Shown here piece after piece: positions 1,450 through 36,683 of a DNA stretch of 37,975 nucleotides (its first letter is position 1; each line of letters starts with the position of its first letter). The notes below the pieces were generated by a model. The model made no database searches. It had not been told where the DNA came from and was given only the letters and a program-made list of their open reading frames with translations. Source of the DNA: Paenibacillaceae bacterium. GTDB lineage: Bacteria; Bacillota; Bacilli; Paenibacillales; CANHGK01. Made by a program: the position numbers and the translations under genes. The stretch is from assembly GCA_947460235.1 (NCBI GenBank), contig CANHGK010000022.1, positions 1-37,975 on the forward strand. Direction: 5' to 3'.

Positions 1450-1486
1450 TTTGAAATGATTCAATTGAATAAGGAGTTCTGATGAT

Positions 1487-3851: not shown

Positions 3852-4288
3852 AAATGGCAGAGATCAGCAAAGTGTTAGTTGAAGGGGATCAGGCATTACT
3901 TAAACAATTCGCAGAAGAAGTTGAAGCGAATCATCAGATTACAATCATCAAACATCCCGGTAGAAGTTTAGTTATGGCAAAAACGAGGGATAGCGTTTCG
4001 CGCGCCCCATTTTATATTGGAGAAGTGCTTGTATCTGAATGTACGGTATCGATTGACCAGGTATATGGCCTAGGGGTTGTCATGGGAGATGAACCCGAAA
4101 AGTCGTATCATCTTGCCGTAGTGGATGCGGCGTTACTTGCGAAGCTTCCTGTGACTGAACAATGGATGGAACGCTTAGTTGGTGCGAAAGCGGCACTTGA
4201 TGAAAAACGACGCTGGCAACATGCGCAAGCGGCGAAAACGAATGTAGATTTTGCAACGGTGGAGGAATTTGGTGATGACAAACGATAA
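3848..4288 (+). CDS. phnG: C-P lyase core subunit PhnG
   Basis: Subunit of the PhnGHIJ carbon-phosphorus lyase core, which with PhnI attaches the phosphonate to the ribose of ATP, displacing adenine. The 146 residues carry the family pattern RAPFYIGEVLVSECTV (about 52-67), then GVVMGDEPEKSYHLAVVDAA. The start overlaps the phnE stop (ATGA). A second in-frame ATG lies six bases later at 3854 and cannot be excluded. The 3' end overlaps the start of phnH by 14 bases. Confidence 0.93.
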   Translation: MKMAEISKVLVEGDQALLKQFAEEVEANHQITIIKHPGRSLVMAKTRDSVSRAPFYIGEVLVSECTVSIDQVYGLGVVMGDEPEKSYHLAVVDAALLAKLPVTEQWMERLVGAKAALDEKRRWQHAQAAKTNVDFATVEEFGDDKR

Positions 4289-7879: not shown

Positions 7880-7900
7880 CGAGGTCAGGAGACGATCAAC

Positions 7901-8608: not shown

Positions 8609-8635
8609 ATTCATCCGGCAAGGAGTTCGATCTTT

Positions 8636-9838: not shown

Positions 9839-9853
9839 GGTGGAGGTGCTAGA

Positions 9854-10804: not shown

Positions 10805-10806
10805 CA

Positions 10807-11964: not shown

Positions 11965-13187
11965 GACGCGCGCTTGATTTGATTACGGCATGCATTCTCG
12001 TCGATTCGATGATGTATATTATTTTGCCGATCATCTATAAAAGTGTGGGCATTTCGTACATTTGGCAAGTCGGTTTGTTGTTAGCAACAAATCGGCTTTT
12101 TCGTTTACCAGCAAGTAGCTTATTTACGTGGTTTGTTACTCGATATGGCGTGTACCGTTCATTGCAGGTTGCTGCGGGTCTGGCTGTACTTACTTCGATT
12201 GGTTATGCGTTCGCGCATGGGTTCTGGATGTGGTTTTTGTTACGGATGATTTGGGGCTGTGCATGGGGATTATTTCGATTGGCAGGATATATCGGTTTAC
12301 TCCAGGATCCGATTTCCGATGGGAACGCCGAATCAGCAGGACTGATGCAACGTTCCATGCAACTTGGTAGTTTGTTTGGCATGTTCTTAGGTGGATGGCT
12401 TGCTGAACGACTTGGTATTTCGTGGACGGTCATTCTATTCGCGATGAGCATGTCGCTCGTTTGGATGCGCTTTGAATGGAGTCGTGTAATCGCACCACCT
12501 AAGGAAGCCTTTGAAAAACCACAAGTAAATACGCAATCAGTAACTACAACGTGGTGGAAGCATCCATCCATGAAATTGTGGCTACAGGCCGGAATTGTTT
12601 ATTTTTTTTCCTACGCACTGCATGTGTTAACGAGTACCTATTTGGGAGCGTTATTTGTACGTCATGCATCACACGACGCGCTCCAAGTATGGATGATGAC
12701 AATTGGCGGCGCGGCTGCATGGGGTGGCTGGTTACACGGGGTTCGATATCTTTTTCAAGCGTATACGAATGTGAAAATTGGGAAATTGATTGATCGATTT
12801 TCACAAACGGATCGATCGTGGACTTTCTCGTTACTCATTACGAGTGTTGTGATGGTTGCGATCACAGTTATAATGGATGTTAATATGTTTATGGGATTAT
12901 TGATTTGGCTCCTAGGTCTTTGGTTGTCTTCCATTCTTGGGATCTGGATCGATTCTTTTGCAATGACAAATGCAAAACTGGCGAACCATCGTGAAAAGGA
13001 AATGAGTTCGTTTAGTTTAGCTACGGATTTGGGTGCTTCGTTAGCGCCGCTGATCAGTTTCATTTTGCTTGATTCGTTTGGGTGGACATGGTTGATGATT
13101 GGTTTCGCTGGATTGCCATTACTTTGTATCTTGATTGAACGTGGGTTAACAGATCGATCCCGCATGTTCGAACAAAGATCGAGCTAG
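11961..13187 (+). CDS. Major facilitator superfamily transporter
   Basis: Integral-membrane transporter of 408 residues with about eleven or twelve hydrophobic segments spread along its length. A first-half loop ends in WGCAWGLFRLAGYIGLL, and LFGMFLGGWLAERLG in a later loop is MFS-like. The start overlaps the previous TGA (ATGA), so it is translationally coupled to the C-P lyase gene set. Substrate is unknown. From context, it may import an organophosphorus compound or export a pathway product. This kind of secondary transporter is not part of the enterobacterial phn operon. Confidence 0.85.
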   Translation: MRRALDLITACILVDSMMYIILPIIYKSVGISYIWQVGLLLATNRLFRLPASSLFTWFVTRYGVYRSLQVAAGLAVLTSIGYAFAHGFWMWFLLRMIWGCAWGLFRLAGYIGLLQDPISDGNAESAGLMQRSMQLGSLFGMFLGGWLAERLGISWTVILFAMSMSLVWMRFEWSRVIAPPKEAFEKPQVNTQSVTTTWWKHPSMKLWLQAGIVYFFSYALHVLTSTYLGALFVRHASHDALQVWMMTIGGAAAWGGWLHGVRYLFQAYTNVKIGKLIDRFSQTDRSWTFSLLITSVVMVAITVIMDVNMFMGLLIWLLGLWLSSILGIWIDSFAMTNAKLANHREKEMSSFSLATDLGASLAPLISFILLDSFGWTWLMIGFAGLPLLCILIERGLTDRSRMFEQRSS

Positions 13188-18416: not shown

Positions 18417-21400
18417 TTAACTAAACAAAATCCAATCCAATACCGGTCCATCAAACCAATCCAACCATTCTTTTCCGAAATCACGTGTAATCGGATATCC
18501 GGAAAGAACAGGATAAAATAATATAAACAGCGCCAATATCAAAATGCCGTAACCGATCGTGATTTTTCGAACTGCAGGGTATGATTGTTCCAACCATCGG
18601 ATCACATACACTAATGCAAAGATAATAAATGGTACGCTTGCGAAAAAGTGATAAATAAAGGTTAATCGTGGGACGAGTACCCAAGGCAAATATTGCGATA
18701 AAAATCCAATGCATACCAAAATTAAAATCGCATTTCTACGTACAAAAATATACATCAAAGCAAATAACATCGCTAGTGACGCTGGCCACCAAATTGCAGG
18801 ATTGCCGAAAGATACGATCGATGAGATAACACCTGCTTCTGGTGTACCGCCATAATACCATATCGGACGAGTCATAATCGGCCATTGATACCATGTGGAT
18901 TTGAATGGGTGATCAGCAACTAAGTTTTTATGGTAATTGTACATATGTTCCTGATAGGTTACCACTTCTTTTAGGCCATGACCTGGTCCTGGAACTTCCA
19001 TAAACGGAATATACGACAAAAAGTAAATGATAACAGGGATAACGATGAACGTTAGCAATGTGACGACAGCCGTAGTACCGATGCGACTAGGGAATTGTCC
19101 AATGACTTGTTGCCATGTTTCTTGTGCGTTGTTAAGTTTTTTACCTGCACGAGCAACACTCTTTATGGCATGTTTGTAATTCAAAATCGTTTCAATTTGT
19201 TTTAACAACCATAGAATTGCCAAACCTGCACCAGCATAAATACAAATCCATTTGCTTGCTGAGCCGAGTCCAAAGAACAATCCTGATAAACTAAGGGAAA
19301 TCATTTGAGCTCTAAGTGGTGTTTCTTTGTATGATGTGATGTATTTCCACATGAAGTAATACATTAAAAGAATGAAAAACACACCATAAACATCAATTGT
19401 AGCAATCCTAGTTTGTGCAAAATGCATGAAATCAAATGTCATCAAAAATGCTGTTAAAAATGCATAGCGAGTTGTACCAAACAATCGGCGGCCAAACAGA
19501 TACATCAAAGGTACCATGAAAATACCGAATAACGTACCTACAATTCGCCAACCGAACGGATTCATCCCAAAAATTTTCACACCAATACTAATGAATATTT
19601 TCCCAAGCGGTGGATGTGTAGATTCATAAGGTTCGATTTGGTGCAATTGTTCATAGGCAGTGCGTGCATGATAAATTTCATCAAAATACATGGAATCATA
19701 ATAGGATGAATTCAAATGAATCGTATTTTGCTCGTCAAACAGTGCGTTGGGCGTGCCTTGGTCTGTCGGATCGGTGGATAAATCGCTCAATGCAACAATT
19801 GGTAAAATTGTCTTTCCATCTGCACCAACGAATCCAACCTCATTCAACATCGAATTCGGATTTTGTACGACTACCCTTAAATACCTTCCGGTAACGGATG
19901 TCGCAACTTTCTTCCACTGATACATGCCACCTTCCGTCGTTTCGAGGACGCCTGCTTGTACCCATGATGTTTTATCATCTGAAGATTCAATTGCGAATTT
20001 ACCGGTTCCATTGGATAAACCGCTGTAATAGGAGATCGAAGTTACGGTTTGTTTTGTTCCAAGATCAACTACAACGGATTCTCCTGCATTCGCCGGACGC
20101 CAGAAGTTTTCTGGCGCGCTTGTTGTACCTAAATTGTAAAGCGCAATAATGGCATAAACGACAGTAAGTGCACCAACCAAATACCAATCCCGTTTTGTCC
20201 AATTGGATATGGTGACAGACTTAAACCATTGATAAGGAATCCAATTCTCATCTGTGGATTGATTGGTAGATACGTCTTGTTTTGTTAGGCCTTGGTCTGA
20301 TTTTGCATTGATTTTAGTAGCAGTAGTCGTTTGGAAGAGCGGAACGCCTGCTGATTTGCGAATCAGTAAGTCCCATCCGAGCCAAGCGCCATAACCGTAT
20401 ACGACCAACTGTAAAAACGAACTAAATAAGACAAAAGCATCATCAATCGGAATTTGAATTACTTTTAGAAAACTATTTCCGAGAACATATGCGCAGTTCG
20501 AATAATGAGCTGCGGTTAACCCTAGGAATAACCATAACAAACGACGATCAGCACGTTGTCCAAGCAAGAGTAAACCAATCGCTAATGTAGGATATAAATA
20601 TCGTTCATGCATTTTTGGGCCGAGCGTGAAAAATCCGAGTAACAGAAGCAATGAAACGAGCATGACCTTTTCAGGGCGAGATCCACCGCGAACAAATAAG
20701 AATATCGCATAGGCGACCGCGATCACGACCCCGATCCAACCCCATGTGTTTATCGAAAGTCCTGCTACGATCTTTGTAACTTCAACCCAGTTATTTTCAA
20801 ATAATGAATGGATATTAAAAGCATTTACAGAGCCATACGGATAGGAAGCAAGTGTTGAATTGTACTTGTCCCATACGAACTTAAACCCTGCCCATAGTGA
20901 GTGATTCTCAATAATTCCTTTCTGAACGACGAACGGTAATATTCCAATAATAAAGGTTCCAATGCCTAATAAAGCACTGCGCACTAGCGTAGGAATCGAT
21001 TTTGAGCGTTCTTTCCAAATGATTTCACCAGCTACAAGCAAGTATACTAAACCGAAAATAAGTGCTTGCGGTTTAATTAACACCGAAATTGCCAAAAACA
21101 ACCCGGATATTGGCAAATTACGCTGAGTTAAACGAACAATGAATAGGACAATAAAGATTGTAAAGGCAGCATCAACTTGTCCCCATGCAGCAGAGTTGAC
21201 AAGTACAGCAGGATTTAACCAGTAAAGTAGGGCGATTGCAGCAGCAATGGTATTACCAAGTGAGATTTTCGTTTGGCGGTAAATAAACCAACCAATCAAT
21301 AAATCACAAATCATCGGTGGAATTTTAGTGATAAAGATGGACGCTGTCGTCCCGTAATCGGTCCCAAATAGCTTCATTAAAAATCCAATAAACCACATCG

Positions 21401-22409
21401 CATATACATAACCCGGTGGGTAATCGGCAAACATACCTTCTTGGTAAAACTTTGCCAAGCCATCACCGAATGCGTGCATGGACCATGCTTGGAATGTTCC
21501 CATATCTGTTCCATAACTTTGTGAAACGCTAGCAATAATAATCCGAACCAATATTGCAAATGTGAATCCACCGTACAATAATAAACGGTCAAAACCATCG
21601 GAAGATGCGGTTAACGGATTCAATTTAGCTTCATTTGCCTGAGCTAATGATCTTGCAAAAAGGATAACTAATAATCCAATGAGTGCATAAACGATACTTG
21701 TGATCCAAATGACTGATCGAGAATACATTCCGGTAGGTAACGGATTTGATGTTTCTGAGGCATTTGGTTGAGCTTGTACATCATTGTTTTGACTGTCTCC
21801 ACTGCCGACGTCCGCTATACCAAATGCTACTGGAGATACGCCATCAGGCAATGTGTCAACTTTTTCAAATTTCACATCATCAAACCAGGCTTTACCTGTA
21901 ACTTCATTTCCATAAAAGCCAAGGCGTAACGTTACTTGAACTTCGGTTTGGTTGGCATCTGTTTGACCGTACAATTCAACATATTCCCATTGATCATTGG
22001 AATCTTTCAAATCTTTCGATGGGGCAGTACTTCCCATGACGGATAGATTGGCACCAATTTTATCTGAGCTAATTCCAGATGCCTTGATCCAACCTGAGAG
22101 TTTATACGTTTTACTTGGTTCGACTGTGACTTTCTGTGACCAACGAGAATCATTCGGTTTCACATTCTCAATAGAAATGGAATGATCTCCATCATGTCCG
22201 GTAGACTCAATCGTGAACAAGGATACATCAGCTTCGGTTTCATACCCTTCATTCCCCCATTTTACTGGAACGTTGGCTTTAATATCTTCAAACCCACCAT
22301 TTTGTAATAAGTTAGAATCTGAGGCTGCTAAAGCGAATGAAAAAGGGAAAGAGGATAACCATAGAAAAATTGTTAAAACAAATAATCTGCAAAAACGTTT
22401 GCGAGTCAT
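18417..22409 (-). CDS. Giant fused membrane glycosyltransferase: CBM-like, GT-C, discoidin-like, GT39/PMT
   Basis: A 1330-residue multidomain membrane enzyme. A signal peptide (1-29) leads to a carbohydrate-binding-module-like beta domain (about 33-185, opening LLQNGGFEDI). A first polytopic GT-C-like module follows (about 230-700, with TDMGTFQAW and ADYPPGYVYAMWF), then an F5/8-type-C/discoidin-like domain (about 762-872). The last part is a protein-O-mannosyltransferase-like module with FDEIYHARTAYE (acidic pair D910-E911), THPPLGK (931-937) and QTRIATIDVYGVFF. PMT-type enzymes take sugar from a polyprenyl carrier, which fits the GtrB and GtrA genes downstream. The first GT-C module may be a second transferase or a scaffold. 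Start ATG 22409 follows GAGGTGAC. It is the first gene of the leftward operon. Confidence 0.88.
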   Translation of the reverse strand: MTRKRFCRLFVLTIFLWLSSFPFSFALAASDSNLLQNGGFEDIKANVPVKWGNEGYETEADVSLFTIESTGHDGDHSISIENVKPNDSRWSQKVTVEPSKTYKLSGWIKASGISSDKIGANLSVMGSTAPSKDLKDSNDQWEYVELYGQTDANQTEVQVTLRLGFYGNEVTGKAWFDDVKFEKVDTLPDGVSPVAFGIADVGSGDSQNNDVQAQPNASETSNPLPTGMYSRSVIWITSIVYALIGLLVILFARSLAQANEAKLNPLTASSDGFDRLLLYGGFTFAILVRIIIASVSQSYGTDMGTFQAWSMHAFGDGLAKFYQEGMFADYPPGYVYAMWFIGFLMKLFGTDYGTTASIFITKIPPMICDLLIGWFIYRQTKISLGNTIAAAIALLYWLNPAVLVNSAAWGQVDAAFTIFIVLFIVRLTQRNLPISGLFLAISVLIKPQALIFGLVYLLVAGEIIWKERSKSIPTLVRSALLGIGTFIIGILPFVVQKGIIENHSLWAGFKFVWDKYNSTLASYPYGSVNAFNIHSLFENNWVEVTKIVAGLSINTWGWIGVVIAVAYAIFLFVRGGSRPEKVMLVSLLLLLGFFTLGPKMHERYLYPTLAIGLLLLGQRADRRLLWLFLGLTAAHYSNCAYVLGNSFLKVIQIPIDDAFVLFSSFLQLVVYGYGAWLGWDLLIRKSAGVPLFQTTTATKINAKSDQGLTKQDVSTNQSTDENWIPYQWFKSVTISNWTKRDWYLVGALTVVYAIIALYNLGTTSAPENFWRPANAGESVVVDLGTKQTVTSISYYSGLSNGTGKFAIESSDDKTSWVQAGVLETTEGGMYQWKKVATSVTGRYLRVVVQNPNSMLNEVGFVGADGKTILPIVALSDLSTDPTDQGTPNALFDEQNTIHLNSSYYDSMYFDEIYHARTAYEQLHQIEPYESTHPPLGKIFISIGVKIFGMNPFGWRIVGTLFGIFMVPLMYLFGRRLFGTTRYAFLTAFLMTFDFMHFAQTRIATIDVYGVFFILLMYYFMWKYITSYKETPLRAQMISLSLSGLFFGLGSASKWICIYAGAGLAILWLLKQIETILNYKHAIKSVARAGKKLNNAQETWQQVIGQFPSRIGTTAVVTLLTFIVIPVIIYFLSYIPFMEVPGPGHGLKEVVTYQEHMYNYHKNLVADHPFKSTWYQWPIMTRPIWYYGGTPEAGVISSIVSFGNPAIWWPASLAMLFALMYIFVRRNAILILVCIGFLSQYLPWVLVPRLTFIYHFFASVPFIIFALVYVIRWLEQSYPAVRKITIGYGILILALFILFYPVLSGYPITRDFGKEWLDWFDGPVLDWILFS

Positions 22410-23520: not shown

Positions 23521-23568
23521 TTCTTCCACAACCGCTCATCATCAGATATGCAACAAGGAGGTAGTCGG

Positions 23569-24633
23569 ATGTCTAAGTTTCGATCGAATATTCCTCAATT
23601 TTTAAAAGAAAAGACGCTTTTACGCATCGGTGTTTTTTACCAACCGCTCGAAACAAGAATGATGGTCGGACGTTTGATGGAATTTAATGAACGTGAAGAT
23701 TATGTTACCTTATATTTGGATGATCGCAAGTCGTTTCTATATATTTATATCAAACATATTGTCACGATGGACATGTTGCCAATTTTTGAGTTGGTGCAAA
23801 TGTGGATTAAAGAAACAAGTTTATTGCAAGTTAAGTTTACACAATCGCGTAAAGGAACGCGCGCGCTATTCGGTCGGATTATTCAAATGGACGATTCATC
23901 TGGGAATATACTTTTTTATGATGTTGATGCCAAAATGGTAAACAACATTTCGATGAATGAATTGGATGATATTCGCGAGGAGCAAAAGAGTCTAACCGAG
24001 AAAACGGAAAAGTTAATTCGTGAAATGACTGCGAATCGTGAGATTTCATATTATAAGCCGATTTCCGAACCAGATAATGCATCATCTCCGCAAAAACCAG
24101 CAAGTTCAGCCGCTGATCTAGCGAAACAAGCTGAACTTGAGCGTCAAGCAGCAATGAAAGCGGCTGCTGAAGCAGCTAAAGTTGCAGAACAAAAAGCCGC
24201 TGAGGCTGCTAAAATGGCTCGCAAAGCGGAAATTGAAAGACAAAATGCGCTTGAAAAGGCAGCCGAGGAAGCCAAAGCTGCAGCCAAAGCCGCTGCTGCT
24301 GAGAAAGCTGCCAATGAAAAAGCAGCTGCAGACAAAGTCGCAGCGGAACGAGCTGCCAATGACGCGGCAGCAAAAGCAAAAGCGAGTGGGCAAGCACCAA
24401 AAGAAGATCCAAGTGGTCGATCTGTGAGCCAACTTGTAAATCAAAAAGGGCATCTTAAGGCCAGTGATGCCGTAGATGATGTCGATATTGATTTATCGCA
24501 TTTAAGTGTACAAGAAGAGATGCAATTGATGATCAGTAAACTTTCGCCTCAAGATTTATATCCATTACTGCCATTGTTGCGATACGTAGTCAAAGAGACA
24601 AAAAAACGCGATGCAAAAAAATTAAATAAATAA
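23569..24633 (+). CDS. Protein with possible tandem Sm/Hfq-like folds and Ala-rich coiled coil
   Basis: A 354-residue soluble protein not assigned to a named family. Residues about 10-55 show a beta pattern reminiscent of Hfq/LSm (MMVGRLMEFNEREDYVTLYL, then YIYIKHIVTM, compare the Hfq YKHAIST motif). A second segment (about 80-125: ALFGRIIQMD, then NILFYDVDAKMVNNISM) could be another copy. Residues about 180-275 are an Ala/Glu/Lys coiled coil, followed by a helical tail with LSHLSVQEEMQLMISKLSP. ATG 23569 follows AAGGAGG at 23555-23561; an earlier in-frame ATG at 23548 precedes that site. A terminator separates it from the kinases. The Sm-like reading is tentative; a PilZ- or SH3-like barrel is an alternative. 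Confidence 0.7.
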   Translation: MSKFRSNIPQFLKEKTLLRIGVFYQPLETRMMVGRLMEFNEREDYVTLYLDDRKSFLYIYIKHIVTMDMLPIFELVQMWIKETSLLQVKFTQSRKGTRALFGRIIQMDDSSGNILFYDVDAKMVNNISMNELDDIREEQKSLTEKTEKLIREMTANREISYYKPISEPDNASSPQKPASSAADLAKQAELERQAAMKAAAEAAKVAEQKAAEAAKMARKAEIERQNALEKAAEEAKAAAKAAAAEKAANEKAAADKVAAERAANDAAAKAKASGQAPKEDPSGRSVSQLVNQKGHLKASDAVDDVDIDLSHLSVQEEMQLMISKLSPQDLYPLLPLLRYVVKETKKRDAKKLNK

Positions 24634-24781: not shown

Positions 24782-27124
24782 GTGAGCTTGAAACCGGAAG
24801 AGACCTACCCGAACCGAAGTTCCATCGGATTCAAACTAACTTTGCTTGCTGTTTTCTCAGCGGCTAGTTTAGGTATCCTTTTTTCTTATATACTAACGAA
24901 TAAAGATGCTATTTTGAGATTTGAAAATCCGGTGTTTATCGGATTTCTTGGCGTGTTTATCGTAGTTGCAGTCGTACAAGTGATCATCGTTTTTATCATT
25001 AAAACTCAAATCATCAAGCCATTACATTTATTAGCAGAAATGATTCATGATGTCGCAGGCGGCCGTTTCACAATTGGTAAATTACCAGTCCACAATCGGG
25101 ACGAGCTTGGCGAATTGGGACGGGCCATGAATATTATGGTTTCCAACTTGCGAGATCTAGTCGGCGAATTAAATGAAACGTCATTTCGAACGCAAAATAT
25201 ACTTAATCATACTGGTCAAGGATTTCTAACGTTCAGTCGTAATGCATTAATTGACGATCAATTCTCAACGGAATGTGAACGCATCTTTGCAATGAATATT
25301 AATGGGTTGCCGTTTCCGTATTTGATTTTTCCAGACCATGAAGATCAACGACAATTCTTGTATCGAATCATCATTCGAATTTTGGACGAAACGGTAGATA
25401 CAAAACAAAAAACATATATTTCTTTGCTTCCGAACGAAGTGAAAATTCGCAATAAAGCAATTCGACTCGATTATAAAATCATTACTTTACACGATGGTAA
25501 AAAACAACAGTTTATGGTTGTGTTAACAGACATTACGTTGCAACGTGAACTGGAAGCGAAGATGTTAGAAGAACGCATGATGCTAAAAATGGTCGTCAAA
25601 GTCATTACTCATATGACAGACTTCATTGAACTGATTAATGATTATCATTTCTTCATTGGGGTTCAGTTGCCATCCATTCTAAATCCTGCGAATCCGATCA
25701 AAAGCGTAATTAATGATCTTTTCCGAATTGTACACACGTTCAAAGGTAACTTTAGTCAGCTAAACTTATCGCATGTCGCAAAGGAATTACACAATCTCGA
25801 AACGCGGATTAGTGAACAAAAAGCGGATCCATCTAAACAAGCATGGGAAAATGTCTATCAGTTGTTTCCTATGAATGAAATGATTGAATGGCTCGAAAAA
25901 GATATACGTAACCTTAAAAGCGTACTCGGTGATTCATTCTTTGAACAACAACTTGGTGTTCGCGTGGATCGATCACAATTGATTGAGCTTGAAAGTATGA
26001 TTTTGCGCCTATGTACACCTTATGAAGCAAAGCGACTCGTTTCAGATGTTCGTAAGTTATTATTTAGACCGTTCCGTGATTTACTTGTTAATTACATTGA
26101 ATATGTTCACGAACTTTCCGATCGATTACAAAAGCCGATCCATCCACTCGTAATAGTAGGGGGCGAGCAACCCGTGGATTTTGAATTTTATCAAAGCTTT
26201 GCCAAATCTTTAATTCATTTGTTCAGAAACGCACTTGATCATGGGATCGAAAGCGCAGAGGAGCGAGCAGCACTTTCCAAAGACGAATTGGGATCTATTA
26301 CATGTGAAATTACATTCCGTAATGATTCGATTACACTAAAAGTGAGTGATGACGGTCGTGGGATCGATCCATCGCAACTGCGAAAATCCATAGCAGTTCG
26401 TGACATTTTTACCACCGATCAAATGGAGTCATTAAGCGATGATGAAGTATTAAATCATGTGTTCTATGATGGTGTATCTACGATTAAAGAAATTACCGAA
26501 CTGTCAGGACGTGGCGTAGGACTTGCATCATTAAAACATGAAGTTGATAAACTTGGCGGAAACATTCAAATGACCAGCAATATCAACGAAGGAACATCAT
26601 TTTCGATTACATTACCCGTTGTTACGCGTGAACAATTACCTGAAGTAAGTATGGATCAATTTATGATTCCGTTACTTGAAAATGCCGTCGAATTACTTAA
26701 ACGTCATTTCGGTGTATCTATGGAAATTGATTCAGTTGAAAACACCCACTCTAATCGGATATCATTAAGCGAAATCACATCGTTCCTAAATGTTCGCGGT
26801 ATTTTTGAAGGTACATTTGTTTATTCCATTGACCGTGATTTGGCACGTGAACAAGTTAAAAGTTATGTACTAGGAGAAATTGATGACGAAGAAGTTGAAC
26901 AACTCATTGACGACGTTGTTGCTGAATGCTTAAACGTTATTATTGGACAATCTTTCAAACTATTTTCCAACGTTGAGGAATTGATTCGCATGGAGACGCC
27001 GGTTACATTACATTCGAGCGGATCCACATTAACGTACCACACATCAGAAATTTGGACTGCACAGTTGAAATCACATGTCGGTGAAATTAAACTTAGTTTC
27101 GTACTCTTAAACGATTATAGCTAA
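24782..27124 (+). CDS. Membrane sensor: HAMP, PAS-like, HPt, CheA-type ATPase, CheX-like domain
   Basis: A 780-residue kinase with two transmembrane helices (about 17-39 and 51-73) and almost no extracytoplasmic part. A HAMP linker (to about 130, DELGELGRAMN) is followed by a PAS-like module starting ILNHTGQGFLTF. The HPt helix IVHTFKGNFSQL carries the likely phospho-acceptor H318. The CheA-type ATPase shows HLFRNALDHGIE (about 479), DDGRGID (523) and GRGVGL (577). The C-terminal domain (about 634-776) matches the CheC/CheX/FliY phosphatase motif D-x3-E-x2-N (D711, E715, N718), with a proline 22 residues later. There is no CheW-like P5 domain and no receiver. GTG 24782 follows AAGGAGGG by seven bases. 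It probably feeds a receiver domain in trans. Confidence 0.85.
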   Translation: MSLKPEETYPNRSSIGFKLTLLAVFSAASLGILFSYILTNKDAILRFENPVFIGFLGVFIVVAVVQVIIVFIIKTQIIKPLHLLAEMIHDVAGGRFTIGKLPVHNRDELGELGRAMNIMVSNLRDLVGELNETSFRTQNILNHTGQGFLTFSRNALIDDQFSTECERIFAMNINGLPFPYLIFPDHEDQRQFLYRIIIRILDETVDTKQKTYISLLPNEVKIRNKAIRLDYKIITLHDGKKQQFMVVLTDITLQRELEAKMLEERMMLKMVVKVITHMTDFIELINDYHFFIGVQLPSILNPANPIKSVINDLFRIVHTFKGNFSQLNLSHVAKELHNLETRISEQKADPSKQAWENVYQLFPMNEMIEWLEKDIRNLKSVLGDSFFEQQLGVRVDRSQLIELESMILRLCTPYEAKRLVSDVRKLLFRPFRDLLVNYIEYVHELSDRLQKPIHPLVIVGGEQPVDFEFYQSFAKSLIHLFRNALDHGIESAEERAALSKDELGSITCEITFRNDSITLKVSDDGRGIDPSQLRKSIAVRDIFTTDQMESLSDDEVLNHVFYDGVSTIKEITELSGRGVGLASLKHEVDKLGGNIQMTSNINEGTSFSITLPVVTREQLPEVSMDQFMIPLLENAVELLKRHFGVSMEIDSVENTHSNRISLSEITSFLNVRGIFEGTFVYSIDRDLAREQVKSYVLGEIDDEEVEQLIDDVVAECLNVIIGQSFKLFSNVEELIRMETPVTLHSSGSTLTYHTSEIWTAQLKSHVGEIKLSFVLLNDYS

Positions 27125-27141
27125 CGAGAGGGGTGCTGTGC

Positions 27142-30100
27142 ATGGAAGGACATGTACCAGGCCCTTTTTCCAGTGGAGGGGCCTCCGCAAGAAAGAATAA
27201 TATTTTTCATCGAATTGCTCGGCAGATGACGCTCGGCCAAAAATTATTTTGGTTTGCAAGTCTGTGCATTTTTGGCGTGCTTACGCTTGTCGGCGTGATC
27301 GGATACAGCATTGCCAAAAATAACGTCAAAGAACAAGTTGGTTTAAGTGCACATCAATCGGTTGTGCAAGCCACAGAAAAGTTGGATGTACTCCTTAAAA
27401 GTTATGAGTCTATTGCTCGGCAGATTAGTGTCAATCGTGAGTTTCGAAAAAATATCGAGTGGTTAAACGGTAAGCGGTTGAATGATCCGGTGACATTCGA
27501 CAAATATAATTCTGTAGAGAATGATTTAAGTAGTATCACAACTGCGAATCCTGATGTGGTTGGGGTTCGATTGGTTTCTGTAAATTATCAAATCGGTCAA
27601 GAAGACAAAATACAGTTTGAAACTTCGTTACCAACTCAAGATATTTTGATGCAACCCAACCATTTGGATATTGTTAAATACATTAAAAATCAAGACGGAA
27701 AAGAAGTATGGTTTCCAACCTCTAAACAAGGATTTTTTGGAAAAAAAGAAGTCAGTGCATCCAAAAACTATATTGGTCCGACGTTTACACTTGGAAAATT
27801 AATAAAAAATGCTAAACATCCTTCTTCTGAATGGGTTTTATTAATTGAAATCAAAATGAATGCTTTGGACTCTGTTTTTTCATCATTAAACCTTGGTCAA
27901 AATTCAAGAACCTATGTGATTGTTCCAAATGGAAACGTTGTTTATTCACAAAATCAAGATGAATTAGAGATGGTATTAGATGTACCAGCAACCTCTAAAA
28001 TTGAACTTGGTTTTTGGTACGAAAGTGATATTGAAGATACATTGTTTGCAGTTCATCATTCAGTTCAAACCAATTGGCTGATCATTGGAAAAGTTCCGTC
28101 ACATGTGTTTTTTCAAGTGTTAAATGTTGAAACATTTATTGAGTTCCTCATTGGTCTCGTGATTGTATTCATTATTGCAAATTTAATAGCGCATTATACA
28201 AGGAAAAATATCGCAAAACCAATATTGAGTTTATCAGAAGCAGCGAATCGGATTGGTAATGGTGATCTCAATCTTGAGCGAGTTTCTGTAGACACCAGGG
28301 ATGAGATTGGGGAATTGTCCATTGCGATAAACGTGATGGCAAGTCTTGTAGATCGAGTTCGTTTAACGAAAAGTCGAGTACAGCTACTATTAGACAATAC
28401 TGGTCAAGGTTTTCTAATCACGAATGAATTGTTGATCATTCAACCGGAATACAGCGCAACCTGTGAAGAGTTTTTCCGTAAACCAATTGCAGGAATTGAA
28501 CTTCAATCTTTGCTTTTTCCACATAGTATGGAAAATCAATATTTGATTCATGATGTCATTGCTGCGGTTTTGGGTCAACGTTCAACTTCACGTAGAAGTG
28601 CATATTTATCGTTGTTGCCTACTGAAATTGACATTTATGGAAACTTTTATAAATGTGAATTTAGAATTTTAGATCATGAAGAAGATCCGAATTTACGAGT
28701 TATGCTTATTTTGACTGATAAATCACAAGAAAAACAATTGGAATCTAAATTGGAACGCGATGAATTGGTTTTGTCAATGATCGTCAATGTTGCTTCGAAT
28801 CATGAGGAAGTATTAAATGTGATTCATGATTTTGAACACTTTGCTTCTGGTGGATGGCGAGTTAATTGGGAACATGGAAAAAGGTTTAAAGAACATTTTA
28901 CTCAATTAATGCGAGAAATTCACACGTATCGAGGCACATTTAGTCAATTTTCATTCGTTAATTTACCCAAAAAATTAAGTAAATTAGAATCGGATATTAC
29001 AGAGCGATTACAGCGATTGAATACCACGAATGATGAGCAGCAGATGTTACGATGGTTTTCGCAATTGCCATTTCAACGCTGGCTCGATGATGATAAATTA
29101 ATTATCCAAGATACAATGGGTGAAAACTTTTTGCGTCGCGCGGTTACTGTAAATATACCTCGTATTCGAATTCAAGAATTTGAAGGTGAAATATTAAATA
29201 TGCTTCCTCCTTACGAAGCACAAAAAATATTAACCGAGTTCCGCAGATTACAAGTAAAACCATTAAAACAATTGTTACGAAGATATACGGAATATGTATT
29301 ACAACTTGCTGAGCGAATGGGGAAATGGGTAAGACCGTTTGAAATTGAAGGAGAATCGATATTAGTTGAACCTGGCGAATATCGTGAGTTGGTCAAAAGT
29401 TTAGTGCATCTATTTCGAAATATGGTTGACCATGGACTTGAAATGCCAGAAGATCGTTTAGTAAATGGTAAATCTGAAAGTGGATCGATACATTGTCAAC
29501 TTTCAGTACTTAACAATTTTATTGTGATAGAAATCGGTGATGATGGAAGAGGTCTTAACCTTAGTCAAATCCGTAATAAAATCATTGAAAATAGTTTGTT
29601 AAGCGAACAAGAAGCGGATCATTTAAGTGACGAGGCATTGAAAGAATATATTTTTCATGATGGATTTTCGACAAGAGATGAAGTTAGTGAATTATCTGGT
29701 CGTGGTGTTGGAATGTCTGTCGTAAAAGCAGAAGTAGATAAATTAGGTGGTCAACTTATAATTGATTCAAAACATAATTTGGGAACTACTTTTACGATTA
29801 AAATTCCGATGCGAGATGGTTCGATGATTAGTAATATTACAATCGATACCTTAATGGAACCATTTAGTGAAGTTGCAGAGCATGTACTGATAAATAATTT
29901 TGAATTGGAAGTTCAATCTAACGAAGTGATTGAACAAAGCCAGAGTCGTTTTGAATTGAAAGAATTAACAACAATGATTTTTGTGCGTGGTGTTATTGAA
30001 GGTTATTTTATGATGACATTAAACCGAGATATCGCAGAATATATGAGCAGTCAATTCGTACTAGGAGATTTAAGTCAGGAAGAAGTAGCAATCATGATGG

Positions 30101-30330
30101 AAGAAGTTGTTGGTGAATGTTTAAATTTAATTCTTGGAAGTGCATTTAAGCATTTCCCGCAAATTGATGAGTTTATTCGCATGGAAACACCGATTACGAT
30201 TTATGGAGATTCACCAGTTTTTAAGTACTTTCAGACAGAAACACGCACAAATCTCATTCAAACGAATTTTGGCGAAGTGAAGATTTGTCTAATACTTATG
30301 GACCAAATGTTAGAAGAAGCCAAGGTGTAA
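27142..30330 (+). CDS. Membrane sensor with extracellular Cache-like domain, HPt, CheA-type ATPase and CheX-like domain
   Basis: Paralogue of the preceding kinase, 1063 residues. TM1 (about 37-59) and TM2 (332-352) flank an extracytoplasmic region of about 270 residues resembling a double Cache sensor. HAMP follows (RDEIGELSIAIN), then the PAS-like LLDNTGQGFLIT and an HPt with H594 in IHTYRGTFSQF. The ATPase motifs are HLFRNMVDHGLE (756), DDGRGLNL (800) and GRGVGM (853). The CheX-like end has E992-C-L-N995, with Glu rather than Asp/Ser at the first motif position. Start ATG 27142 suits GAGAGG at 27126-27131; an in-frame GTG at 27133 lies too close to it. Only 17 bases separate it from the previous gene, so the two are co-transcribed. 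Confidence 0.85.
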   Translation: MEGHVPGPFSSGGASARKNNIFHRIARQMTLGQKLFWFASLCIFGVLTLVGVIGYSIAKNNVKEQVGLSAHQSVVQATEKLDVLLKSYESIARQISVNREFRKNIEWLNGKRLNDPVTFDKYNSVENDLSSITTANPDVVGVRLVSVNYQIGQEDKIQFETSLPTQDILMQPNHLDIVKYIKNQDGKEVWFPTSKQGFFGKKEVSASKNYIGPTFTLGKLIKNAKHPSSEWVLLIEIKMNALDSVFSSLNLGQNSRTYVIVPNGNVVYSQNQDELEMVLDVPATSKIELGFWYESDIEDTLFAVHHSVQTNWLIIGKVPSHVFFQVLNVETFIEFLIGLVIVFIIANLIAHYTRKNIAKPILSLSEAANRIGNGDLNLERVSVDTRDEIGELSIAINVMASLVDRVRLTKSRVQLLLDNTGQGFLITNELLIIQPEYSATCEEFFRKPIAGIELQSLLFPHSMENQYLIHDVIAAVLGQRSTSRRSAYLSLLPTEIDIYGNFYKCEFRILDHEEDPNLRVMLILTDKSQEKQLESKLERDELVLSMIVNVASNHEEVLNVIHDFEHFASGGWRVNWEHGKRFKEHFTQLMREIHTYRGTFSQFSFVNLPKKLSKLESDITERLQRLNTTNDEQQMLRWFSQLPFQRWLDDDKLIIQDTMGENFLRRAVTVNIPRIRIQEFEGEILNMLPPYEAQKILTEFRRLQVKPLKQLLRRYTEYVLQLAERMGKWVRPFEIEGESILVEPGEYRELVKSLVHLFRNMVDHGLEMPEDRLVNGKSESGSIHCQLSVLNNFIVIEIGDDGRGLNLSQIRNKIIENSLLSEQEADHLSDEALKEYIFHDGFSTRDEVSELSGRGVGMSVVKAEVDKLGGQLIIDSKHNLGTTFTIKIPMRDGSMISNITIDTLMEPFSEVAEHVLINNFELEVQSNEVIEQSQSRFELKELTTMIFVRGVIEGYFMMTLNRDIAEYMSSQFVLGDLSQEEVAIMMEEVVGECLNLILGSAFKHFPQIDEFIRMETPITIYGDSPVFKYFQTETRTNLIQTNFGEVKICLILMDQMLEEAKV

Positions 30331-30391: not shown

Positions 30392-32707
30392 TTATGTTTG
30401 TTTTAAAAATTGTTTTGACACATGACCAACTTTTAATTGCATGTCAATCCGTGCCAAAAGTTCCTGTTTGCTGAACGGTTTCGTCACATAGTCGTTTGCT
30501 CCTGCCATAAAGCCCTTTACAATGTCTTCATTTGTGTTTTTGGCAGAAAGTAAAATAATTGGCAACACATGTTGCGTAAATTGTTTGCGAACTTCTTTTG
30601 TCACATCGTAACCTGACATCTTTGGCATCATTACGTCAAGCAATATAAGATCCGGTTGCAATCCTTTTTTGATCATCGCAAGTGCTTCTACGCCATTATT
30701 TGCTGTAAATAATCGATAATTAAATTGACTGAGGTGATTTACTAAAACGTTTAAATTGATTGCTTCATCATCTACTAATAAAATTGTACTGTCATACGTC
30801 GAAGATTGACCCAAAAAGACGGGGTCAACATCCCAATCTACAAGTAATGCATGTTCATATGCACTTTGTTGATGTTCGTTTGTAATTGAAGATTCAACCA
30901 TATCATCTTGAAACGCAATTGGTAAACTAAACGTGAATGTCGTTCCTTTTCCAAGTGTACTTTCAACTTGGATATTTCCTTTTTGAAGTTCAATCAGTTG
31001 TTTTGTTACCGCAAGACCTAATCCTGTACCCCCATAACTCCGTTCTAATGATCCTTCGATTTGTTCAAATGATTTAAAGATATCATCCAAACGATCTGAA
31101 GGGATTCCAATTCCAGTATCTTTAATCGAGATACTCAAGTGGTTACCTTGAATCGCGGAAAACATTTCAATCATCCCAGCATCCGTAAATTTAATTGAAT
31201 TAGACAAGATATTATGCAAAATTTGTTGAAGTCGATTCTCATCTGCTAATACAGCTGGTGGATTAGATTTAGAAATGTGATTAATAATTTCCACTGGTTT
31301 TTTACCAATCAGTGATTTTAATAATGCGACGGTCATCTCAGCAACTGTAGAAACATCAACAGGACGAATTCGAAGTTCAAGTTTCTTATTTTTCATTTTG
31401 TTGAAATCGAGAATGTCATTCACTAACGTATTTAAACGCAAGCCACTAGCAATGATTATTCGTAAATTTTTATTTACGACCTCATTTAATTTACCACCCA
31501 CACCATCTATTAAGGATTCTGCGATCCCAATAATTCCGTTTAGCGGTGTCCGAAGTTCATGTGAAGTGTTGGATAAAATTTGATCTTTGAGCGCATTTAG
31601 TTTAATCAGTTCTTCAGACTGTCTCGCAAGTTGTTCATTGTTAACACGTAATTCAGTAGATGTGTGGACGAGTGAGTCATTCATTTGTTGAAAACGGCGA
31701 AATAAAATAAACGAAATGATAAAAATAATGATCAACAATGTAAACATGCAAATGTTCATCCATAGTGTTTGATTGACATTTTTAAATAAATCGGAGGTTG
31801 GGATATACGTATAAAGAATCCAGTTGGTAATCGATGATTGTTGCTTAATCAAAACAAAGTCGGTGTTGTTTTTATTGACAAATTGAATCGAATCACCGTT
31901 CTGATGTTCTAATGGAATAGAATATGATTTACTAGTGAGTAATGCATTAGACGAATAGACAACCATTCCATTTTGATCCATTAAATAAAAACTTGTACCG
32001 TTCTCTAGTTTTATTCGATCGTAAATTGCTTGAAAAAAATGAATCCCAATTTCGGCATCAAATACATATTCATCTCCACTAATTGATTTCATATTTGTAA
32101 AGGGACTTAATAATGCAAATTCTGGACCAGTATAATCGCGAATCACCTTGTTATCGAGTTCGTTTGATTTCATCCAACCGTTGATGGAAGTAGGTAACCA
32201 AGTATATTGTTTAATATCCATTAATGAATGCTTGAAAATTGGTTTATTTTGATCGATGGGTATGAATAGTTTTGATGATAACGTTGATATATTAGTATTA
32301 TCATCTGTTGTTCCATTTTTGATATTTACGCCAATATTATTAATATTTAAAAGGCGAATGATATGAATGTTTTTATTGGTACTTTTTGATGTTTCTAATA
32401 TTTGTCTGATTTTTGTGTTTATTGTATTGTTCGATTGGTTCGCAAAATTATGGTTAACATTTTTTATAATAAAACGTAAATCAGGACTATAGTTTAATTG
32501 GTCCACTGCTTTTCTGATCTGTTCTAACTCGACGTCCATTCGATCCATTGCTTGAGATACCGCTTGGCTACTTGCTTTTGCTAATGTAGATCGAATCGTT
32601 TCCTTTGAAGTAGAATATGCAAAATAACTCACTGTAAAAACAGCAATTAATACAATGAAAAATAGTATGAAAAATTTGGTCGTTTGATTTTTGTTATGAT
32701 CAAGCAT
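30392..32707 (-). CDS. Hybrid sensor histidine kinase with C-terminal receiver
   Basis: A 771-residue membrane kinase. TM1 (about 12-32) and TM2 (about 317-340) enclose an extracytoplasmic Cache-like region of about 280 residues. A short coiled coil leads to a HisKA domain (SNTSHELRTPLNGIIG, H383) and an HATPase domain (NRLQQILHNILSNSIKFTD, DTGIGIP and GGTGLGLAV). The receiver is ILLVDDEAINLNV with phospho-acceptor D691 in LLDVMMPKMSG and the conserved lysine in YVTKPFS. Start ATG 32707 is supported by GAGGTGAC six bases upstream. It overlaps the end of the upstream hybrid kinase by eight bases, so the two are coupled. The receiver is an obvious partner for HPt domains nearby. Confidence 0.92.
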   Translation of the reverse strand: MLDHNKNQTTKFFILFFIVLIAVFTVSYFAYSTSKETIRSTLAKASSQAVSQAMDRMDVELEQIRKAVDQLNYSPDLRFIIKNVNHNFANQSNNTINTKIRQILETSKSTNKNIHIIRLLNINNIGVNIKNGTTDDNTNISTLSSKLFIPIDQNKPIFKHSLMDIKQYTWLPTSINGWMKSNELDNKVIRDYTGPEFALLSPFTNMKSISGDEYVFDAEIGIHFFQAIYDRIKLENGTSFYLMDQNGMVVYSSNALLTSKSYSIPLEHQNGDSIQFVNKNNTDFVLIKQQSSITNWILYTYIPTSDLFKNVNQTLWMNICMFTLLIIIFIISFILFRRFQQMNDSLVHTSTELRVNNEQLARQSEELIKLNALKDQILSNTSHELRTPLNGIIGIAESLIDGVGGKLNEVVNKNLRIIIASGLRLNTLVNDILDFNKMKNKKLELRIRPVDVSTVAEMTVALLKSLIGKKPVEIINHISKSNPPAVLADENRLQQILHNILSNSIKFTDAGMIEMFSAIQGNHLSISIKDTGIGIPSDRLDDIFKSFEQIEGSLERSYGGTGLGLAVTKQLIELQKGNIQVESTLGKGTTFTFSLPIAFQDDMVESSITNEHQQSAYEHALLVDWDVDPVFLGQSSTYDSTILLVDDEAINLNVLVNHLSQFNYRLFTANNGVEALAMIKKGLQPDLILLDVMMPKMSGYDVTKEVRKQFTQHVLPIILLSAKNTNEDIVKGFMAGANDYVTKPFSKQELLARIDMQLKVGHVSKQFLKQT

Positions 32708-35700
32708 GGACAGTCACCTCGTTTGATAACAGAATGTCCACGTTTTGAAATTCGAATACAAATGTACTACCTTTTCCGCGCTGAGATTGTACCGTAACAG
32801 TGCCATTTGCAAGGTCCGTTTGGTATTTGACCGCAGCCAGCCCAACGCCGCGTCCTGCAAATTCATTTGTGCTTGTAGAAGTACTCATTGCGTCCTGAAA
32901 GATTAGATTTTGGATCGCTTCGTCTGACATATCATTAATTTCTTGTCGTGTCATCTCACTTTCTAAGATCAGTTTGCGACGTAATTTGTTCGTATCGATT
33001 CCTTTGCCATCATCACTGATTGATAATTCAAATGAATCATTTTGCTTGCATTTGAATGAAATTTGAATGGTTGATCTGTTTTCTTTTGCAGACATTAGTC
33101 GTTCCTCGATGGATTCCAACCCGTGTTCAACAATATTTCTAAACATATGCACGAGACCATCGCTAAATCCTCGATATTGATCAGGATTTAATAGAAATGG
33201 ATTGCCATGATATTCAAATTGCGGAATGCATTTGCCGCGTTGTTCTGCTAATTCCATTGTGTATGTTTCATAGCGTTTGACAAGATCAAATGCATTCATG
33301 TAATACATTTGTTTTATTTTGTGAATTACCGGTGGTTTTAATTGGATTGGAATGGTGTCTTCAACTAATTGTTGTACTTCGCGTATTATGGTTTGATCCA
33401 CACGAACAGAAGTAGTGGCTTGTAATGGGTCGAAACCGAATAACTCTTTTAATTCATCTAAATCATCTTGAATGGTTGCGCGTAGTGAGTGAGTGTTAAC
33501 CCATTCGCCGATTATTTCAACGGAAATGGAATCGTCTTCCATTAACGCAGATAGTTCTGTTTCGAGTGCATGTAAATTTGAACCTGTTTTTGAGAAACCA
33601 TATTGCAGTAGATTTCCCTTGTACGTATGAAGGACTCGGTACATGTTTACACACCATTCGATACCATCGGAAGTTTGCGGATGAATCGTCCATTCATTTC
33701 TTGAGAAATGATCGAACGATTGAATCAATTGGGTGATGTCTCGTTCATTTGTCACAGTTTTCACGATCATTTCTCGTCGTTGGTGTTCGATTTTGATTTG
33801 GTCAGATAATTTTTTTGCTTCTGAAACATCGGTGACCACAACCATCATTTGGCTATCTTTTCCATTTGATGAGGGCATGAGCTTATAAATAAACTTAATA
33901 AATTTGTTTTGATAATGTAATTCCTCCGGTAAAAGTCCCATCATCATCGAAACGGTAGCAGCATCCTTTGTATCAATGATGGTTTCAAGTACAGCACTTA
34001 ATGATTTTTGCTCATCAGATGAATCAGGATAAATCAGTGCGGGGAATTGTTCATGCTCAATATTTCGATTGAAGATTTTTAAACATTCTGAACTGAATTC
34101 CGGTTGTACTTTTAGTTCACGATCAATTGTTAAGAAGCCTTGATCGGAATGATCTAAAAGTGCACGAATCGATCTCGTGCGTTGATCGACGGCGTGTTGC
34201 ATCATTCGGTTCCAGTCCGATAATTGAAGGTGAGTACTAATTCTCGCTAAGAGTTCGAATTTATTTATTGGTTTTGTCATGTAATCATTTGCGCCGACTT
34301 CAAAAGCCGTTTTTAAGTCTTCATTTTGATTTTTTGCGGTCAACAAGAGAATTGGTAATTTGTTGATTGAATTTTTCCAACGCACTCTTCGAGTGACTTC
34401 GTATCCTGTAATTTCAGGCATCATTACATCCAGTAAAATAAGGTCGGGAATATAGCCATTATCCATCATATTTAATGCTTCTTTACCATTGGCGGCAGTC
34501 ATCAATTCATAGGGCTGAGTGGATAAATGATTTAAGATGACTTGAATGTTAATTGGTTCATCATCAACGATGAGAATTCGGTAATGCACGGTGGTAGGAT
34601 CAAGTATGTCTGTATGTTGTGATACGGGTTTGAAATCCGTCGCTAATTTTTCATATTCAATCGAACGCGGACCTTCCTTCGAGTCTCTGGTATCAAGTGC
34701 AGACACATGTAACGCAGTTGTTGGCAGTGTAAATGAAAAAACACTGCCTTTGTTTTCCTTAGAGCGGACACCAATCACGCCACCATGCATTTCTACAAGT
34801 TGTTTTGTAATGGAAAGCCCTAATCCAGTCCCACCGTATTTTCTGCTGATTGTACCATCCGCTTGTTCGAATGCTTTGAAAAGACTTGAAATTTTGTTTT
34901 CAGGAATCCCAATGCCAGAGTCTTCGATTTCGATTTTCATCCATTCATTTGTTTCGAGTGAAGCGCGTATTTTAATCGAACCTTTTTCTGTAAATTTAAA
35001 TGCATTGTTTAAAAGGTTATGGAAAATTTGTTGTAATCGGTTATCATCACCGTAAACATTTGGTAATGAAGGTGCAACATCTACGGAAATGGTTAGTTTT
35101 TTCGTTTCAAACATTGGCCCTAATAATGCCAAGGTTTGTTCGATTGAACTGCGTAAAGATAGGGGACGTTGATAGATTTCCAATTTTTGATTTTTTAATT
35201 TTGCAAAATCAAGAATGTCATTTACAAGATTGGATAGTCTGCGACCACTTGCTGTGATCATGCGTAAATTCTTGATGGCCGCATCACTCATATCACCACT
35301 TATACCATCTAAAAGTGATTCGGCGATTCCGATAATTCCGTTTAATGGAGTTCGTAACTCGTGAGATGTATTCGATAAAATCTGGTCCTTCATTTCGTTT
35401 AATTGCATTAATTCTTGTGATTGTTGTTCGAGTTTCACATTGTTTTGACGCAGTTCTAAACCTGATTTTTCTAATTGACTATTCATTTTGATGAATCTTT
35501 TAAACAAAATAATGGTAAGTATGAATACGAGAACTAATAAACCAATGACAAACATATTAACGATTAATGTATTGTTTGCAGCTTTAAATAATGACGCGGT
35601 AGGAATACTTGTGATAATCGACCAATTGTTGATTGCAGATTTTTGTTTAAGGATCATAAATTCTTGATTGTTTAATTGAGCGTATTGAACAGTATCCTTG

Positions 35701-36512
35701 GCATTTTGTAGTTCAGGCACTGAAAGTTTTGATGTAATTAATGATGAATCAGATGCATAAATGATATTGTTCTGATCATCGATTAAGTAAAAACTTGAAC
35801 CATCCCCAAAATCAACTTGCCCAAACATTGTTTCTAGCAACGAAAGTTTTATTTCAGCGACAAGTACGAATTTTTCATTCGCTTTTGAACTCATGTTTTG
35901 ATAGGGCGTAATGAGCGTAAATTCAGGCCCGACATAGTCTCTAATTGTTGATGTGTCGAGGTCTTGACGTTTCAACCAACCGTTTTTTAATGTTGGCACC
36001 CACGTTTCCTTAGATAATGTATTAAGTTGATTAATAATTGCTTTATTTGTGTGATCAAAAGTCATTCCGTAACCTGCAGCATTCGATGAAAAACCGAATT
36101 CGCCTGATTCTGATTTTTGATTCGCAACCTCATCGATCGAATTGATACCAATGATTCGAATTGCTTTGATATTTTTGTTTGAACTACGATAGGTGTCAAG
36201 TATTGTTGAAATGGTTTTCGCGTCGATTTTAGACCAGTCGACTTGGTCCAATTGTGCATCGACTCTTTTAATGATTTTGCGAATATCGGTATTGTAATTC
36301 ACTTGCATCATCAATCGATTCATTTGATTTAATTCAACGTCAAGTCGCTGCATTAATTGAGCAACGGTTTGATTGGTTGCTTTCGAAACTTCAAGTCGGA
36401 TCGTCTCTTTGGAAGTAAAATATGCAAAATAGCTTCCTGCTAATACGATTACTAGAACAGAGAAGAATAGCACGAAAATTCTTCTTGGTGAAATAATTTT
36501 GATTGGCTTCAC
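32700..36512 (-). CDS. Double-kinase hybrid sensor: HisKA-HATPase-REC-PAS-HPt-CheA ATPase
   Basis: A 1270-residue membrane protein with two kinase cores. TM1 (about 9-31) and TM2 (about 312-338) flank a Cache-like sensor. Then come HisKA (SNTSHELRTPLNG, H384), HATPase (DSGIGIPENK and GGTGLGLSI) and a receiver (ILIVDDEPINIQV, D695 in LLDVMMP, YMTKPIN). The second half repeats the module of the + strand kinases: PAS-like LLDHSDQGFLTI, HPt VLHTYKGNLLQYGF with H962, and CheA-type ATPase HMFRNIVEHGLE (about 1120), SDDGKGID and GRGVGL (about 1221). It ends without a CheX-like domain. GTG 36512 is chosen because AGGTGG lies five bases before it; the earlier GTG at 36521 lies inside that site. A phosphorelay within one chain is possible. 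Confidence 0.88.
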   Translation of the reverse strand: MKPIKIISPRRIFVLFFSVLVIVLAGSYFAYFTSKETIRLEVSKATNQTVAQLMQRLDVELNQMNRLMMQVNYNTDIRKIIKRVDAQLDQVDWSKIDAKTISTILDTYRSSNKNIKAIRIIGINSIDEVANQKSESGEFGFSSNAAGYGMTFDHTNKAIINQLNTLSKETWVPTLKNGWLKRQDLDTSTIRDYVGPEFTLITPYQNMSSKANEKFVLVAEIKLSLLETMFGQVDFGDGSSFYLIDDQNNIIYASDSSLITSKLSVPELQNAKDTVQYAQLNNQEFMILKQKSAINNWSIITSIPTASLFKAANNTLIVNMFVIGLLVLVFILTIILFKRFIKMNSQLEKSGLELRQNNVKLEQQSQELMQLNEMKDQILSNTSHELRTPLNGIIGIAESLLDGISGDMSDAAIKNLRMITASGRRLSNLVNDILDFAKLKNQKLEIYQRPLSLRSSIEQTLALLGPMFETKKLTISVDVAPSLPNVYGDDNRLQQIFHNLLNNAFKFTEKGSIKIRASLETNEWMKIEIEDSGIGIPENKISSLFKAFEQADGTISRKYGGTGLGLSITKQLVEMHGGVIGVRSKENKGSVFSFTLPTTALHVSALDTRDSKEGPRSIEYEKLATDFKPVSQHTDILDPTTVHYRILIVDDEPINIQVILNHLSTQPYELMTAANGKEALNMMDNGYIPDLILLDVMMPEITGYEVTRRVRWKNSINKLPILLLTAKNQNEDLKTAFEVGANDYMTKPINKFELLARISTHLQLSDWNRMMQHAVDQRTRSIRALLDHSDQGFLTIDRELKVQPEFSSECLKIFNRNIEHEQFPALIYPDSSDEQKSLSAVLETIIDTKDAATVSMMMGLLPEELHYQNKFIKFIYKLMPSSNGKDSQMMVVVTDVSEAKKLSDQIKIEHQRREMIVKTVTNERDITQLIQSFDHFSRNEWTIHPQTSDGIEWCVNMYRVLHTYKGNLLQYGFSKTGSNLHALETELSALMEDDSISVEIIGEWVNTHSLRATIQDDLDELKELFGFDPLQATTSVRVDQTIIREVQQLVEDTIPIQLKPPVIHKIKQMYYMNAFDLVKRYETYTMELAEQRGKCIPQFEYHGNPFLLNPDQYRGFSDGLVHMFRNIVEHGLESIEERLMSAKENRSTIQISFKCKQNDSFELSISDDGKGIDTNKLRRKLILESEMTRQEINDMSDEAIQNLIFQDAMSTSTSTNEFAGRGVGLAAVKYQTDLANGTVTVQSQRGKGSTFVFEFQNVDILLSNEVTVHA

Positions 36513-36683
36513 GATAACCACCTACTTACTGGGAATGAGCACACTGTAAGTATATATTTCTACCTATGTTTTACATTTACCTCTAAAATTTACTTGGATA
36601 TATTCAAAATATTAATTTATATTTTTAATTGAAAATATTTTTGTGCTATACGTTTGTTCTGGGGTTTTGTTCCAAGTAAATTA

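Follow-up and report, generated by a model that had tools for sequence, protein, structure and literature searches.

Tandem CheA-like sensor kinases ending in a CheX domain: candidate membrane kinase/phosphatases for a CheY-like receiver

Introduction

CheA-type kinases have no phosphatase residues beside the phosphorylated His, and separate phosphatases do that job. Two adjacent genes, K1 and K2, in a 37,975-bp stretch of DNA from a Paenibacillaceae bacterium (contig CANHGK010000022.1; the whole stretch is here called the window) raise the question of what a CheA-type kinase does when its own chain ends in a chemotaxis phosphatase domain. A survey of CheA defined the protein by four core domains, CheW among them, and found CheW in 100% of its data set; in that survey, fusions to CheC/CheX were noted only in F1-class CheA of Leptospirae, and a dual function was suggested for them (Gumerov and colleagues 2023, PMC10782961).

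Results and Discussion

K1 and K2 are CheA-like kinases with their own sensor parts

K1 (780 aa) and K2 (1065 aa) lie on the same strand, 9 bp apart, and both start with GTG (Table 1). Coordinates, Pfam matches and motifs agree with an initial annotation of the window, which described two tandem ORFs with HPt and CheA-type ATPase modules. Pfam matched HAMP, HATPase_c and CheX in both proteins, and by hydropathy K1 has two TM segments at its N-terminus and K2 has one on each side of its sensor. Kinase and phosphatase parts are joined in one chain, as the annotation had it, and the chain has its own sensor part. Each protein has a CheA-type P4 ATPase and an Hpt with a phospho-accepting His (His318 in K1, His597 in K2). 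The Pfam score of the K1 Hpt, 23.0 bits, is slightly below the 24.6 cut-off; K2 had no significant Pfam Hpt match, but H-x2-R-G at His597 is nevertheless kept. Pfam found no CheW domain in K1, K2 or any of 19 aligned relatives, so that K1 and K2 fail the survey's definition of CheA (PMC10782961) and are called CheA-like here. Neither was the P3 dimerisation domain (Pfam H-kinase_dim) matched in K1, K2 or relatives; a fold match to the CheA P3P4 structure 4xiv exists. The description of the system as free of CheW and receptors holds for the two proteins and not for the cell, since the genome also encodes ordinary CheW-containing chemotaxis systems.

In the 2.7-Mb genome we counted some 27 kinases of the CheA-like type and 64 receiver domains. 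Several very large hybrids combine HisKA-HATPase-REC with a second, Hpt-HATPase half that lacks CheX. In-frame stops in five paralogous kinases were only apparent, their positions being normal ORF ends.

Table 1. Genes and domains discussed in the text. Locations without a prefix are window positions.
Feature	Location	Strand	Details
K1 kinase	24782..27124	+	780 aa; two TM, HAMP, PAS-like region, Hpt, CheA-type ATPase, CheX
K1 HAMP	25007..25156	+	Pfam PF00672 5.2e-10, residues 76-125
K1 Hpt	25706..25843	+	Pfam PF01627 9.7e-5; phospho-accepting His318 (HTFKG) at 25733-25735
K1 CheA-type ATPase	26204..26620	+	Pfam PF02518 1.6e-15; HLFRN, DDGRG, GRGVG motifs; CheA P4/P3P4 fold match
K1 CheX	26636..27109	+	Pfam PF13690 5.7e-11, residues 665-754; AlphaFold; Foldseek
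K1 CheX active-site motif E715-x2-N718	26924..26935	+	P740 at 26999-27001
K2 kinase	27133..30330	+	1065 aa; TM, dCache, TM, HAMP, PAS-like, Hpt, CheA-type ATPase, CheX
K2 extracellular dCache sensor	27319..28038	+	PF02743 8.9e-7, 29.1 bits; below curated cut-off 45
K2 Hpt His597 (HTYRG)	28921..28923	+	Motif
K2 CheA-type ATPase	29395..29814	+	PF02518 3.7e-14
K2 CheX	29845..30312	+	PF13690 3.2e-9, residues 946-1027; E995-x2-N998 at 30115-30126
Hybrid kinase (HisKA-HATPase-REC), convergent with K1/K2	30392..32707	-	Receiver 66 bits with partner profile
Second hybrid kinase (HisKA-HATPase-REC, then Hpt-HATPase half without CheX)	32700..36521	-	Receiver 60 bits
Third same-genome paralog of K1/K2	L004:6347-8698		E-x2-N and downstream Pro present
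Stand-alone receiver C20, own genome	C20:30380-30733		191 bits with partner profile
Stand-alone receiver C29, own genome	C29:20759-21112		188 bits with partner profile
Class III cyclase with CheX tail	L149:8834-10303		
Class III cyclase with CheX tail	L234:4097-5566		
Class III cyclase with CheX tail	L237:3550-5133		
Class III cyclase with CheX tail	L240:3812-5254		
Class III cyclase with CheX tail	L241:6950-8392		
Class III cyclase with CheX tail	L242:3303-4736		
Negativicutes CheX-like protein after receiver	L122:8759-9637		ExxN kept
Negativicutes CheX-like protein after receiver	L124:8736-9614		ExxN kept
Negativicutes CheX-like protein after receiver	L125:8604-9593		ExxN kept
Negativicutes CheX-like protein after receiver	L127:3801-4736		ExxN kept

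The C-terminal domain is CheX and retains the catalytic residues

Both K1 and K2 end in a true CheX domain, and the reported replacement of CheW by a CheX-like domain is borne out by the Pfam matches. An AlphaFold model of the K1 domain, built with 25 homologues, had a pLDDT of 92.6, and its thirteen best Foldseek matches were CheX/CheC-like proteins, with CheX 3hm4 at the top (1.4e-13) and the Borrelia CheX-CheY complex 3hzh among them; for K1, the structural comparison proposed in the annotation came out in favor of CheX. A phmmer search of the PDB also matched 3hm4, at 1e-3. In a model of the whole cytoplasmic part of K1, the kinase half resembled CheA P4 (TMt up to 0.93) and P3P4, the tail resembled CheX, and the match to P5-containing CheA chains was partial.

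The annotation had also reported an E-x2-N motif, with a Pro 22 residues later, in both proteins. The motif is present in both, and the K1 residues, E715 and N718 followed by P740 (N+22), stand as given. The K2 residues had been numbered E992/N995, which fits a count begun at the ATG at 27142; when the GTG at 27133 is taken as the start, they are E995 and N998, with P1020. The CheX consensus has Asp or Ser four residues ahead of the Glu; K1 has D711 at this place and K2 has Glu instead. The third paralog that this genome encodes also has E-x2-N and the downstream Pro. An alignment of 19 diverse fused kinases, none from the Negativicutes group described below, shows no variation at the Hpt His, in the ATPase motifs or at the CheX Glu, Asn and Pro, the last three belonging to a very small set of invariant columns. 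Pfam matched HATPase_c and CheX in all 19 and Hpt in 16. Given the Pfam E-values, the CheX crystal structures as best folds and the invariance of Glu, Asn and Pro, the domain is not a chance match.

CheX-bearing kinases recur in fused and split forms

One scan of named genomes gave 80 loci. By profiles made from K1, K2 and the third paralog, CheX is fused to the kinase in 31, from Syntrophomonadaceae, Desulfosporosinus, Thermincola, Paenibacillus, Cohnella, Propionispira, Sporomusa, Calditrichales and a few Campylobacterota; the fused architecture recurs in Bacillota and Calditrichota. At 16 further loci, mainly in Campylobacterota but also in Solidesulfovibrio and one Paenibacillus, a separate CheX gene directly follows the kinase gene, and in 12 of these kinase, CheX and receiver are separate consecutive genes in that order, an arrangement seen in Campylobacterota and Solidesulfovibrio. 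A strong CheX-kinase match in a long frame was obtained for about 14 of 298 genomes sampled from the order to which the window belongs. A search that requires CheW would miss the members in Bacillota, Campylobacterota and Calditrichota, and the CheA survey (PMC10782961), whose definition includes CheW, would not count these kinases.

The Glu/Asn pair is lost from the CheX domain of five Negativicutes kinases. In four of these five operons, E-F-L-N is retained in a CheX-like region at the C-terminus of another protein, the product of the gene that follows the receiver gene; Pfam confirmed CheX in both of the two proteins that were scanned, and the L122 protein also has an MshE-type c-di-GMP-binding domain. 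A motif lost from the kinase yet kept by a neighbouring gene product speaks for phosphatase function being important to the module. That some relatives keep the domain without Glu/Asn means that CheX may also have a non-catalytic role, and one might suppose that it serves mainly for receiver docking, like P2 of CheA, with hydrolysis absent or unimportant. A CheX tail on class III cyclases in the same Paenibacillales operons (see below) would fit such a role, as it suggests receiver binding for regulation. We consider docking as the main role unlikely, because Glu, Asn and Pro are among so few invariant columns, because four of the five operons with a degenerate domain encode a second CheX with an intact motif, and because a separate CheX gene in the split loci is hard to reconcile with docking alone.

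The likely partners are two orphan CheY-like receivers

The gene directly after the kinase encodes a receiver in 26 of the 31 fused loci, versus 11 of 35 for related kinases that lack CheX (Fisher p 2e-5, with kinship among the sequences uncorrected). This receiver is CheY-like and stands alone or is joined to about 125 extra residues (a weak STAS match in two), to GGDEF or to DUF2225; in L120:7985-9484, for example, the receiver is fused to DUF2225, an uncharacterised domain. CheX proteins can dimerise, and Pfam does not recognise the CheA dimerisation domain in these kinases, so CheX might only dimerise the kinase, or might be a neutral fusion that plays no part in receiver turnover. Either would leave the invariance of the catalytic residues unexpected, and linkage to a CheY-like receiver holds for fused and separate CheX alike; we regard this explanation as very improbable.

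No receiver gene adjoins K1 and K2 on their strand, and their partner must therefore be sought by homology. A profile of the partner receivers gave its top scores in the genome with two stand-alone receivers, C20 and C29 (Table 1); the flagellar CheY was third at 153 bits, and all others scored 103 or less. Identity to partner receivers reaches about 66-67% for C20 and C29 and at most 54% for the flagellar CheY. In a receiver tree, C20 and C29 fall within the Bacillota partner group, with support of only 92/92. On profile scores, identity and tree grouping, these orphan single-domain receivers are the likely partners of K1 and K2. The annotation had instead pointed to the receivers of the hybrid kinases beginning at 30392 and 32700. 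Those kinases do adjoin K1 and K2 in the window, and, as genes for flagella and chemotaxis are present in the genome and its flagellar CheY is the third-best profile match, that CheY is another candidate. It seems rather unlikely that K1 and K2 act on any of these in place of C20 and C29: the hybrid receivers score just 66 and 60 bits, compared with 191 and 188 for C20 and C29, and were set aside as preferred partners, and the two orphans are markedly nearer to the partner receivers than is the flagellar CheY.

Cyclases and GGDEF proteins in related operons

In Paenibacillales operons a class III cyclase gene is found ahead of the kinase gene or behind the receiver gene. At six Paenibacillales loci (Table 1) the cyclase itself has a C-terminal CheX tail and lies beside a CheX-bearing kinase and a receiver. 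The CheX domains of these cyclases form one clade (99/94) nested inside the Bacillota fused group, and the tail was thus probably taken from a kinase. In Arcobacteraceae a GGDEF protein follows. K1 and K2 have no such genes as neighbours. A nearby cyclase as the output of K1 and K2 was rejected: the only class III cyclase of the genome is on another contig, in a 938-aa frame.

Proposed mechanism and comparison with known systems

The residue invariance, the receiver linkage, the split loci and the Negativicutes pattern together support a kinase/phosphatase in the membrane that has a single CheY-like regulator as its target. Control of the Hpt/CheA-type kinase core would come from the sensor part (TM-HAMP in K1, dCache-TM-HAMP in K2). 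The core would autophosphorylate its Hpt histidine, from which a CheY-like receiver would take the phosphoryl group. By means of its Glu/Asn pair, the CheX domain at the C-terminus would hydrolyse the phospho-aspartate of the same receiver. Sensor input would set the balance of kinase and phosphatase, and the ratio of the two activities would fix receiver phosphorylation. We infer from sequence that both activities, the identity of the partner and the coupling to the sensor are probably as described. As a whole, we think it reasonably likely that K1 and K2 are membrane sensor kinase/phosphatases built from the chemotaxis kit, with a CheY-like receiver, C20 and C29 being the likely partners.

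The operon cheA2-cheW3-cheX-cheY3 of Borrelia burgdorferi likewise encodes kinase, CheX and CheY together, and its CheX has the same fold and ExxN motif (complex 3hzh); unlike K1 and K2, these are separate proteins that work with CheW and chemoreceptors. The bifunctional HisKA/HisKA_3 kinases CrdS and NarX are membrane sensors that phosphorylate and dephosphorylate their own regulator, as proposed here, but their phosphatase residues are in the DHp domain beside the His (PMC3510030), whereas in K1 and K2 they are in a separate, unrelated domain. Fusion of CheX would restore to a CheA-type kinase the bifunctionality of the DHp domain of ordinary histidine kinases.

The statement that nothing similar had been described has to be narrowed. 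The Leptospirae fusions also combine kinase and CheC/CheX in one chain with a proposed dual role; they have CheW, while K1 and K2 have none and carry their own TM-HAMP sensor (PMC10782961). Rhodobacter sphaeroides CheA3 is described as a kinase-phosphatase, and CheA3/CheA4 deliver phosphate to, and remove it from, one receiver (CheY6), as proposed for K1 and K2; CheA3 has a phosphatase region with no recognised CheX, no active kinase domain and a place in a receptor cluster (PMC10782961, PMC6829392). The available passages of a Campylobacterota survey put cheX near fliNO in the F3 system and make no mention of a kinase-CheX-receiver operon. We found no description of this CheX-kinase system in the open-access papers searched. 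What is new is a CheW-less, widespread form of the reported CheA-CheC/CheX fusion idea, with its own sensor and no separate receptors.

The wider module merits more attention than the single K1/K2 locus. On balance we favor the view that a widespread and essentially undescribed module consists of a receptor-independent kinase of the CheA type in the membrane, together with CheX and a CheY-like receiver; Bacillota would have the fused form, and Campylobacterota a form divided among three genes. Several lineages would have it wired to nucleotide second messengers, through class III cyclases that bear a CheX tail of their own, through GGDEF proteins and through CheX proteins that bind c-di-GMP. 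By recruitment of a chemotaxis phosphatase, bifunctional sensor kinases would have arisen a second time, convergently. If bifunctional, a CheX-bearing kinase would be an independent route to such a switch, its kinase and phosphatase sites lying in domains that can be separated; the long-standing question of how sensors trade one activity against the other could therefore be tested by removing one domain and leaving the other untouched, and the natural fused and split versions are ready-made controls.

Other genes in the window

Upstream of K1, on the same strand, window positions 23548-24633 encode an alanine-rich protein for which neither Pfam, above its cut-off, nor NCBIfam gave a match. Positions 18417-22409 encode a 1330-aa protein with GT87-like, carbohydrate-binding and protein-O-mannosyltransferase-like membrane parts. 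Positions 28-13187 hold an apparently ordinary phosphonate transport and C-P lyase set (PhnG, PhnH, PhnI, PhnJ and others).
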